From: Acidobacteriota bacterium
GTDB taxonomy: Bacteria; Actinomycetota; Acidimicrobiia; Spongiisociales; UBA11373
Length of the DNA stretch: 37,221 nt
Reading direction: 5' to 3'
Assembly: GCA_022571885.1 (NCBI GenBank)
Contig: JACZWZ010000009.1
Span: 1 to 37,221 of the forward strand
Shown: positions 24,080 to 28,345 of the stretch, piece by piece
How positions within the stretch are numbered: the stretch's first letter is position 1
Layout: every line of letters begins with the position of its first letter
Position numbers and translations under genes: made by a program
The notes under the pieces: model-generated
What the model saw: the letters and a program-made list of their open reading frames with translations, nothing else
Databases searched by the model: none
What the model was told of the DNA's origin: nothing

Positions 24080-24111
24080 CGTAAAACGCCTGGTCAGAGG
24101 CCCTTTTTACG
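24080..24111 (-). terminator. Stem-loop at the end of dciA
   Basis: CGTAAAA (24080-24086) pairs with TTTTACG (24105-24111), and inside it GCCT pairs with AGGC around a six-base loop. It overlaps the dciA stop codon and could end the recF-dciA transcript. There is no U-run beyond the stem. Confidence 0.4.
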
Positions 24112-24408
24112 ATTTCCCACTCGAATCTTGATCCGATCGATGGCTTCGTCCCCAAAGTGACTTCTGAGCCGGTCGAGCAGCGGGCCCACCCGGTACCTGA
24201 GCAGACTGGCGGCGACTCCGTCCTTCACCTGCACCACCAGCTCTCCGTCCTTGAGTCCAACCGGTTCCGCCCCGGCGAACGGCTCTCCGGCGAGTTCTTC
24301 CCAATCCTCCACCAACTCGGCGAGGTCCAAGGAGGTCGGAATTCCCAGACGCTCCAACAGCGCATCCAGATCCCTTCCGATCGGTTCCAGATCGTGGTGT
24401 CCTCTCAT
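24094..24408 (-). CDS. dciA: DciA-like helicase-loading protein (DUF721)
   Basis: A 104-residue protein of the DUF721/DciA family, which helps load the replicative helicase in bacteria without DnaC/DnaI-type loaders. The core WEELAGEPFAGAEPVGLKDGELVVQVKDGVAASLLRY and the tail IDRIKIRVGN match the KH-like DciA fold. ATG at 24408 overlaps the recF stop as ATGA, so the two are translationally coupled. The position between recF and gyrB is the standard one in actinobacteria. Confidence 0.85.
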   Translation of the reverse strand: MRGHHDLEPIGRDLDALLERLGIPTSLDLAELVEDWEELAGEPFAGAEPVGLKDGELVVQVKDGVAASLLRYRVGPLLDRLRSHFGDEAIDRIKIRVGNRKKGL

Positions 24409-25508: not shown

Positions 25509-25516
25509 AAGCGAAA

Positions 25517-25591
25517 GTCTCCAGTCACCAGTCGCCAGCCAGAACTGACGGCGCGCCTCTTACTGGGGACTGGAGACTGGAGACTGGAGAC
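25517..25591. repeat. Heptamer array TGGAGAC with inverted partner
   Basis: GTCTCCAGTCACCAGT (25517-25532) pairs with ACTGGGGACTGGAGAC (25562-25577) with one G-T mismatch, and two more TGGAGAC words follow (to 25591). The same word recurs at 37193-37221. It lies between dnaN and recF on the minus strand. Confidence 0.85.
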
Positions 25592-25631
25592 GAGATCCAC
25601 TGGAGATCCGTGATTCGGGCCGACAGACGCT

Positions 25632-26711
25632 CTAAAGCCGGACGGGCATCAACAAGTAGAGGAAGTCTTCTCCCTCGCCGCCCCGAAGGACCCCCGGCTT
25701 GAGTGGGTCCAAGACGTCGAGAACAACCGTCTCCTCTTCGACGGCGTTGACACCGTCGTTGAGATACCTGCTGTTGAAGGCGATGATCATCTCTTCGCCG
25801 TTGTACTCGCCTTCAACATGTTCGGTCTCGCCACCGACATCTTGGCGGGACACGCTGAGTTCCACCCCGCCGGAGGAAAGCGCCAGCCGGATCGGGATGT
25901 GATCCTCAGCAACCAGCGAAGCGCGGTCGATTGCAGCCAGCAGGGCTTCACGACTCACCCGAAGCCGACTCGGGTACGACTCCGGAATGAGTTGGCGGTA
26001 ATTGGGAAATGTGCCTTCTATGACCCTGGCCGTCAGCGTTCCCCTGCTCGAAGAAAAGATCGCTTCGCGGCCGCCCACGGCCACCTGCAGTTCCGAGGCG
26101 CCAACGCTTCGGCCCAACTCCTTCAGCGCTCGCACCGGGACCAGACCAGACAGGTCGGCATCGACGGCGGGGACATCACGGACCGCCAACCGATAAGAGT
26201 CGGTAGCGACCAATCGAAGCTTGCCCTCCTCGTGCTCAAAGAACACGCCGGTCAGAATCGGTCTGGCGTCGTCGGTGCTGGCGGCAACCATCACCTGGCG
26301 CAATGCTTCTCCGAAGGCGTCTCCGTCTACACCCACCGCCTCGCTCATGTCGGGCTCCTCGATCTTGGGAAACTCATCGACCGACAGCTCCCGAAAGCGG
26401 AAGCGGGGGCCGCCACCGGTGATTTCTATCTCGCCTTCCTTCGCCTCGAGGACTACCGCACCCGGCGGGAGTTTTCGAACGGCTTCGGTGGCGAGCCGCG
26501 ACGGGATGACCGTTTGTCCTTCTTCGATCGTCTCGACTTCGAGTTCGGTCTTCACGGTCACCTCGAGATCGGTCCCGGTCACCCGCATCGTTTTGCCGGT
26601 TACCTCGACCAGGACGCCTTGGAGGATCGGCAACGGTGAACGGGTCCCTACTGCGCGACCGGCCCGGCTCAAGACATCAACCAGATCATCCCTTTCAGCT
26701 CGGATACGCAC
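25632..26711 (-). CDS. dnaN: DNA polymerase III sliding clamp (beta)
   Basis: The 359-residue beta clamp, a dimeric ring that tethers polymerase III to DNA. The N-terminal segment MRIRAERDDLVDVLSRAGRAVGTRSPLPILQGVLVEV, the repeated three-domain pattern (for example YRLAVRDVPA and NSRYLNDGVNAV) and the C-terminal YLLMPVRL are typical; the last residues form part of the protein-binding pocket. The start is GTG at 26711 with AAGG about ten bases upstream. It lies across the putative oriC from dnaA. Confidence 0.97.
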   Translation of the reverse strand: MRIRAERDDLVDVLSRAGRAVGTRSPLPILQGVLVEVTGKTMRVTGTDLEVTVKTELEVETIEEGQTVIPSRLATEAVRKLPPGAVVLEAKEGEIEITGGGPRFRFRELSVDEFPKIEEPDMSEAVGVDGDAFGEALRQVMVAASTDDARPILTGVFFEHEEGKLRLVATDSYRLAVRDVPAVDADLSGLVPVRALKELGRSVGASELQVAVGGREAIFSSSRGTLTARVIEGTFPNYRQLIPESYPSRLRVSREALLAAIDRASLVAEDHIPIRLALSSGGVELSVSRQDVGGETEHVEGEYNGEEMIIAFNSRYLNDGVNAVEEETVVLDVLDPLKPGVLRGGEGEDFLYLLMPVRL

Positions 26712-26909
26712 AGGTTGTCCCTTTCCTTCTTCTGCTTGGATAATTGAATTGAATCAAGTAGCAGTAGTAGGGGGTGTGGATTGTGGACGATGCTGCAAAA
26801 CCCCAGGTCGGAGGGGGGTTGGAGTATTCACAGGGTGTGGACCGAGCACCCCTGTTGCCCACAGTGCCGGTCGAAGCCTGGGGGAAGTGTGGAGAAGAGA
26901 GGGTGTTGT
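26712..26909. other. Putative oriC between dnaA and dnaN
   Basis: This 198-base gap holds several near-consensus DnaA boxes: minus-strand CAATCCACA (26775-26783), TCGTCCACA (26782-26790), CGGTCCACA (26836-26844) and TTCTCCACA (26888-26896), plus plus-strand TTGCCCACA (26855-26863). Reading the minus strand toward dnaN, the first two boxes are followed by CCCC (26771-26774), then triplets CTA-CTA-CTG-CTA-CTT (26756-26770), then the AT-rich stretch TTGATTCAATTCAATTATCC. That order equals the box/GC-cluster/DnaA-trio/unwinding layout of the basal origin-unwinding system. Actinobacterial origins usually lie in this gap. Confidence 0.8.
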
Positions 26910-28277
26910 TCACGGGTTTCTCCTCAGGCCTTGCATCAGCGCGGTGACACGATCGAAAAGCATTTCATCCTCGGACATGAGGCGGCTCACGGTGTTGATG
27001 CCGTGCAGCACGGTGGTGTGATCCCTGCCGCCAAAGATGACTCCGATCTTGGGAAGCGATAGATCTGTGGTCTCCCTCACTAGGTACATGGCTATCTGAC
27101 GAGCCCTGGCGAGGGGCTGATTGCGCCGCGGCCCCTCCAGGTCGGCGATCGAGAGACTGAAAGCCTCGGCGGTAGCCGCCAGGATACGGGCCGGACTGAC
27201 CGGAGCCTTGGAGTGCGCCGGACCGAGATCTTGCAGGACATCTTCGGCCATTTCGAGATTGATCGGCTGGTGGGTGAGCGCGGCGTAGGCCGTCACCCGG
27301 GTGAGGGCCCCTTCGAGTTCACGGATGTTGTCCACCACACCGGCGGCGATGAACTCGAGCACCGGCTCAGGAATAGGTTGTGGCGCGAACGCCGCGTTGC
27401 GTCGGAGGATCGCCAGCCGCGTCTCGACGTCGGGGGGCTGGATATCGGTGGTGAGGCCCCACTCGAATCGGCTGCGGATTCGCGCCTCGAGATTGGTGAG
27501 GCTCTTGGGGGGACGGTCGGCAGAGAAGACGAGCTGCTTTCCCGCCTCGTAGAGCGAGTTGAAGGTATGGAAGAACTCTTCGAGGATCTGCTCCTTCCCC
27601 TCGAGGAACTGCACGTCATCGAGGAGAAAGAGGTCCACGGTTCGATAGTGGGCCTTGAACTCGTCCATTCGCTTCTTGCGGATGCTGTCGATGAAGTTGT
27701 TGAAGAACTCTTCGGAGGAGACATATGAGATCTCGAGCTGCGGGTGGAGCAGCGCCGAGTGCTGGGCGACCGCGTGCAGCAGGTGAGTTTTCCCCAGGCC
27801 GGATCCGCCGTAGACGAATAGGGGGTTGTAGTTTCCTCCGGGTTGTTCGGCTATCGCCATTGCCGCTGCGTGGGCGAAGCGATTCGACGGGCCGACCACG
27901 AAATTCTCGAACGAGTACTTGGGGAGGAAACGCTGCGCTGTTGGCGATTCCTCGACCAGAATTGGCAACGCATCGGCCGGTTCGGGGTCGGAGTCTTCCT
28001 CGAGAAGGGGCTCGTAATGCGGTTCGTCGGGGGCGGAAAGCTCAACGATCAGCCCGGAACCAAAGGCGGTTGCGACCGCATCTTCTACCAGCGGCCGGAA
28101 TTTCTCGTTGACCCAACGGAGATGGAACTCGCTGGGTGCGGTGATGTGAATCACGTCGTCGGCAATAGACTCTGGTTGGAGCCCATCGAGCCAGGTCCTC
28201 CAGGTGACCGGGGTGACACGCCCACGGAGCGTCTGCCGGAACTGTTCCCAGTTCTCGGCGGCCGGATGCGCTTCCAC
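26910..28277 (-). CDS. dnaA: Chromosomal replication initiator DnaA
   Basis: The 455-residue AAA+ initiator that binds DnaA boxes and melts the origin. Domain I spans about residues 1-80 (WEQFRQTLRGRVTPVTWRTWLDGL), a short acidic linker follows, then domain III with Walker A GGSGLGKTH, Walker B FLLDDVQFLEGK and sensor 2 NIRELEGAL. Domain IV ends with the box-recognition helix GGRDHTTVLHG. The start is GTG at 28277, with GAGG about eight bases upstream. A promoter candidate and a DnaA-box palindrome lie upstream, which suggests autoregulation. Confidence 0.98.
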   Translation of the reverse strand: MEAHPAAENWEQFRQTLRGRVTPVTWRTWLDGLQPESIADDVIHITAPSEFHLRWVNEKFRPLVEDAVATAFGSGLIVELSAPDEPHYEPLLEEDSDPEPADALPILVEESPTAQRFLPKYSFENFVVGPSNRFAHAAAMAIAEQPGGNYNPLFVYGGSGLGKTHLLHAVAQHSALLHPQLEISYVSSEEFFNNFIDSIRKKRMDEFKAHYRTVDLFLLDDVQFLEGKEQILEEFFHTFNSLYEAGKQLVFSADRPPKSLTNLEARIRSRFEWGLTTDIQPPDVETRLAILRRNAAFAPQPIPEPVLEFIAAGVVDNIRELEGALTRVTAYAALTHQPINLEMAEDVLQDLGPAHSKAPVSPARILAATAEAFSLSIADLEGPRRNQPLARARQIAMYLVRETTDLSLPKIGVIFGGRDHTTVLHGINTVSRLMSEDEMLFDRVTALMQGLRRNP

Positions 28278-28313
28278 GTGTTGCCTCGCAGTGCCCTCGA
28301 ACTACTACTTCTC

Positions 28314-28345
28314 TTCTCCACAGGGGTATCCACACCTGTGGAGAA
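28314..28345 (-). promoter_or_regulatory. Palindromic DnaA-box cluster in the dnaA leader
   Basis: TTCTCCACAGG (28314-28324) and CCTGTGGAGAA (28335-28345) form a perfect 11-bp inverted repeat. Its ten-base centre holds GTATCCACA (28326-28334), eight of nine matches to TTATCCACA. Each arm is itself an 8/9 DnaA box. The site is 37 bases upstream of the dnaA start. Confidence 0.7.

Follow-up and report, generated by a model that had tools for sequence, protein, structure and literature searches.

The window, a stretch of 37,221 nucleotides (contig JACZWZ010000009.1), includes dnaA (26910..28277, minus strand; PF00308, PF08299, and PF11638) and dnaN (25632..26711, minus strand; PF00712, PF02767, and PF02768). 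Both genes are recognised by Pfam, and the module described below lies between dnaA and dnaN, as a reading of this DNA from its letters (the sequence-only reading) had maintained. The gene rpmH is located beyond dnaA, and dnaN is followed by recF, dciA (PF05258), and gyrB; dciA, at 24094-24408 on the minus strand between recF and gyrB, is in line with dnaA-dnaN-recF. The gap between recF and dnaN has short repeats of the CTGGAGACT and AGTCTCCAG type (25515-25595), which may be a repetitive extragenic element.

Read on the minus strand, the dnaA-dnaN module is TCGTCCACAATCCACA-CCCC-CTACTACTGCTACTT-GATTCAATTCAATTATCC. It comprises four parts, all of which had been described in the sequence-only reading and are present where it had placed them. 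(i) Two DnaA boxes of the same orientation are aimed at the trios: the upstream box 1, TCGTCCACA (26782..26790, minus strand), in which the TCCACA core is kept over 32 genera, and the trio-proximal box 2, CAATCCACA (26775..26783, minus strand). Box 2 starts 7 bp past the start of box 1, two bases are common to both, and each has two mismatches relative to the consensus, because of which their affinity for DnaA may be low. (ii) A GC spacer, CCCC (26771..26774, minus strand), separates box 2 from the first trio, and this gap is 4 nt in 93 of 105 class genomes. (iii) The DnaA-trio array, 3'-GAT-GAT-GAC-GAT-GAA-5' on the plus strand (26756..26770), shows conservation that reaches 2 bits per base; its minus-strand reading, CTACTACTGCTACTT, is CTA-CTA-CTG-CTA-CTT. 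(iv) An AT-rich stretch (26736..26769), the least stable of the window and a putative DNA unwinding element, overlaps the trios and continues beyond them. The 25-mer with the highest A+T content of the window begins at 26736, positions 26740-26769 are the least stable 30-mer in the 37 kb as calculated from nearest-neighbour energies, and the 20-mer that follows the triplets, GATTCAATTCAATTATCC, has the joint highest A+T content among the 20-mers of the window.

Additional DnaA-box-like sites are found on both sides of dnaA. In the dnaA-dnaN spacer, TTCTCCACA (26888..26896, minus strand) and GTATTCACA (26824..26832, plus strand) each have one mismatch to TTWTNCACA and are matches to the consensus only. 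Three sites are located upstream of dnaA at 28314..28345, namely TTCTCCACA on the plus strand, GTATCCACA on the plus strand, and TTCTCCACA on the minus strand; this cluster, together with the dnaA-dnaN region, suggests a bipartite origin. The sequence CTACTACTT (28302-28322), just upstream of the dnaA start, adjoins box TTCTCCACA, but a module of the type discussed here would need it on the other side of the box. About 7 nt upstream of box 1, CCTGGGGTTTT (26797-26807, minus strand) is weakly conserved and recurs in families f1, f5, and f6.

The expectation for such an arrangement by chance was evaluated with shuffled sequences. The pattern TCCACA-N(1-3)-TCCACA-N4-CTACTAC has one match in the window and none in 100 shuffles, and a scan that followed published rules (a box with at most two mismatches, a spacer of 0-16 nt, and at least three trios with a central adenine; PMC8287927) returned the module as the sole candidate with five trios in the window. 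A box with five trios was found in none of 200 mononucleotide shuffles, of which the best had four. Taken by itself, the triplet run is less remarkable: five in-phase CTN triplets, present once in the window, occurred at least once in 5 of 100 shuffles; the weight rests on the combination of parts and on their conservation.

The source genome is a draft of 228 contigs, and the skew was therefore read inside its own contig and in one relative, G003, that is assembled as a single contig. Within the window, cumulative G-C is lowest at 26732. In G003, sampled in 20-kb segments along 2.2 Mb, the skew is negative ahead of dnaA/dnaN (1.357 Mb) and positive past them, with the exception of the sample at 1.95 Mb, which is slightly negative on the positive side; the opposite switch falls between the 111-kb and 222-kb samples. 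The sign thus changes at the homologous place in the relative, and the skew analysis that had been proposed for locating the origin points to the dnaA-dnaN spacer.

Conservation in relatives, also proposed as a check, is strong for both boxes and triplets. The same module precedes dnaN in 54 relatives, the nearest of which share the genus and the most distant the order. In an alignment of 32 genera of the order, with one genome per genus, most columns in the box cores and in the trios carry 1-2 bits, whereas those of the flanks are mostly at ∼0.2 bits with a few up to 0.7, and the base sequence past the trios is not conserved. The exact core pattern (tandem TCCACAATCCACA, 2-5 nt, and CTACTAC) is present in 77 of 395 class genomes, as a single copy in each, and a reversed control pattern is present in none of the 395. 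In the GTDB species set the pattern occurs on at least 118 contigs, mostly from Acidimicrobiia as judged by title or dnaN with a few from Gemmatimonadota, and among the matches listed nearly all lie between dnaA and dnaN. In other orders of the class, the module is found in most of 27 genomes. Module scoring identified no clear tandem-box module before dnaN in G276, G266, G186, and G154 (L277-L280); these loci, from genus g33 of family f3, may have one box and an array that has diverged. Three contigs titled Gemmatimonadota (L098, L132, and L153) have boxes with a 7-bp pitch and trios, which in L098 and L132 were displayed between dnaA and dnaN. The titles of L093, L113, L145, and L162 (Bifidobacterium breve, Thermoanaerobacterales, and Armatimonadetes) do not match their origin regions; the dnaN of L162 is 62% identical to that of the window, and the titles are therefore probably misassigned.

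Spacing and base preferences were compared in 105 class genomes, 84 from the order and 21 from other orders, which were picked by module score and are mutually related. The pitch of the boxes is 7 bp in 90 of these genomes, 8 bp in 13, and 9 bp in 2. The spacing that the sequence-only reading had regarded as tighter than usual is thus the norm in the class. In the window, the first trio is 4 nt from box 2 and 11 nt from box 1; the latter distance is shared by 87 of the 105 genomes and falls within the peak of 10-13 nt reported for the box-to-trio distance across bacteria (PMC8287927). On the box strand, CTA predominates in trios 1 and 2 (C in 96 and 83% and T in 96 and 92% of the 105 genomes). 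Trios 3 and 4 keep the C that corresponds to the 3' guanine in 98 and 93%, but the T that corresponds to the central adenine in 53 and 60%, where C is the second most frequent base (26-27%); in trio 5, T returns to 86%. The overlapping set of 118 contigs gives C in 100, 86, and 85% versus T in 53, 56, and 64% for trios 3-5. Under the published search rule, conservation of the trio rests on its central adenine (PMC8287927), whereas the base that varies less in trios 3 and 4 of Acidimicrobiia is the 3' guanine; cytosine has been reported as a functional substitute for the central adenine. A novel reading of these letters, less bold than the convergent arrays considered below, is that DnaA of Acidimicrobiia may read the 3' guanine of trios 3 and 4 more strictly than the central adenine. 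The pattern falls short of proving a different recognition, and part of it may be drift, because the genomes are GC-rich and mutually related.

The closest solved structure to the DnaA of the window is that of Bacillus subtilis DnaA in its complex with the basal origin-unwinding system, BUS (8btg, E=7.5e-122). The window protein has domain IV (PF08299), the trio-binding initiator motif, and the arginine finger. Among the B. subtilis DnaA residues that contact the trio strand (PMC10721633) or the neighbouring subunit, Glu183, Asn187, Ile190, Ile193, Lys222, Glu223, and Glu228 are identical in the window protein, as is the arginine finger, Arg264. Two contacts differ from those of B. subtilis: Arg202, which together with Glu228 holds the 3' guanine of the trio, and Asn196, which touches the third base (PMC10721633), are both replaced by Lys. 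Across the class loci, Glu228 and Arg264 are invariant and Asn187 is nearly so, and Lys222 and Glu223 are variable outside the order.

These features indicate that the module is very probably the BUS-type unwinding site of the chromosomal oriC of Acidimicrobiia. The two boxes, neither with more than two mismatches, face the trios; the distance to the first trio lies within the 0-16 nt range; the array has five trios of the 3'-NAN-5' type, where three are sufficient, with GAT next to the box; and the unstable stretch at 26740-26769 adjoins them. The resemblance to the B. subtilis type that the sequence-only reading had recognised extends to order, polarity, spacer length, and gene context. The B. 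subtilis BUS (oriC incC; PMC6669920 and PMC10721633) is likewise situated between dnaA and dnaN and has two co-oriented boxes (#6 and #7), trios of the 3'-GAT-5' type on the complementary strand that a short GC spacer separates from the boxes, AT-rich DNA on the far side of the trios, and a DnaA in which the trio-binding residues are mostly the same. It differs in that box #6 matches the consensus, whereas neither box of the window is perfect, and in that the central adenine of trios 3 and 4 is relaxed in the relatives of the window; the window boxes overlap by two bases. BUS modules have been predicted in 1755 of 2070 bacterial species (Pelliciari et al. 2021, PMC8287927); the module of the window agrees with the search rules used there and has GAT proximal to the box as those modules do, although the program permits up to 3 bp between boxes, whereas those of the window overlap. 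Clostridioides difficile oriC2 (PMC7561715) also has a trio sequence, CTACTACTATTACTACTA, that adjoins a predicted DUE in the dnaA-dnaN gap, in a Firmicute host and with a longer array.

From B. subtilis and other species, we infer the following course of events at the module. Two DnaA molecules would bind to the tandem boxes through domain IV, and the contact of their AAA+ domains above the CCCC spacer would start a DnaA-ATP filament. The filament would extend in the 3' to 5' direction on the trios of the plus strand, with each neighbouring pair of DnaA molecules taking up the first two bases of a trio (3'-G-A), and would stretch and split the duplex into the AT-rich DNA before dnaN, where the helicase would be loaded. 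DciA is a helicase-associated protein, and the product of the gene at 24094-24408 is a likely helper in the loading step.

The module belongs to the already known BUS mechanism and is a largely ordinary, well-conserved example of it. Its position probably locates the origin of an uncultured lineage of Acidimicrobiia to some tens of bases, and the BUS is close to constant in this class of a GC-rich phylum. A search of the open-access literature found nothing on origins of the BUS kind in Acidimicrobiia. The class-wide alignment provides natural variation on how two DnaA molecules fit boxes with a 7-bp pitch, and it also bears on why the central adenine of trios 3 and 4 may vary while the 3' guanine stays.

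Other explanations of the module were considered. Because it sits in the 5' region of dnaN, and because a cluster of DnaA boxes is also present upstream of dnaA, the boxes and triplets might form a DnaA-responsive control site for dnaN transcription, with the origin opening elsewhere, for example upstream of dnaA. A strict array with a 3-nt repeat, a fixed distance to the boxes, and conservation at the level of single bases are unexpected for a repressor site, and the module is retained in genomes in which its distance to the dnaN start is 86-206 nt rather than ∼60 nt. The skew minimum and the least stable 30-mer are both at the module, and the published-rule scan found no BUS-type array beside the boxes upstream of dnaA; this explanation is very unlikely. 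As a separate candidate, an origin in the rpmH-dnaA region was rejected, since the boxes there lack an adjoining trio array in BUS order.

Partial complementarity of the CTACTAC...GTAGTAG type in some relatives would be accounted for if, in the dnaN mRNA, the triplets supplied one arm of an RNA hairpin or leader element. Folding of the segment from the trios to the dnaN start is, however, no stronger than that of dinucleotide shuffles (mean z of +0.43, with 1 of 55 below -2), and a hairpin leaves the conserved DnaA boxes and their fixed spacing unexplained, which makes this reading extremely improbable. A hairpin between the main array and the second array described below was also rejected, as the folding z-scores give it no support. 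A coincidental match can appeal to the frequency of the five-triplet CTN run in shuffles, but the complete pattern is absent from them and is kept at the same place throughout the class, so that coincidence is hardly credible at all. The BUS-type unwinding site remains the preferred interpretation.

A candidate second array, AAG-CAG-AAG-AAG-GAA (∼26723-26737, minus strand), lies on the strand that does not carry the main trios. Many relatives in the order have A at every third base on this other strand from the AT-rich stretch to dnaN, for example CAGCAGTAGCAACAGCAG in G028. The triplets before dnaN have a periodicity above that of shuffles, and in-phase runs of at least five NAR triplets are present in 31% of 75 dnaN leaders and, among 148 leaders that belong to other genes, in 2. 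In the dnaN leaders of L003-L085, NAG/NAA triplets are strongest in families f2 and f3 and in part of f1, f6, and f8. These data could indicate that, in part of the order, two convergent trio arrays, one per strand, face each other across the AT-rich stretch; the single-stranded sequence tied to this reading is AAGCAGAAGAAGGAA. If it were true, DnaA could coat both strands and help to position two helicases. Families f4, f5, and f7 have a short run of NAR triplets or none, and the array is weak or absent in most genomes in which the dnaN start is far from the module and absent in other orders of the class. No conserved box faces it, since the ATACGCACA sequence at the dnaN start of the window, which has two mismatches, is lost in other families. 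The convergent arrangement is accordingly considered unlikely, and a second, convergent BUS was rejected on the basis of the patchy distribution of the array across families and orders and the lack of a conserved facing DnaA box within 16 nt. The most suitable interpretation of the second array is a purine-rich leader of dnaN that includes the ribosome-binding site.
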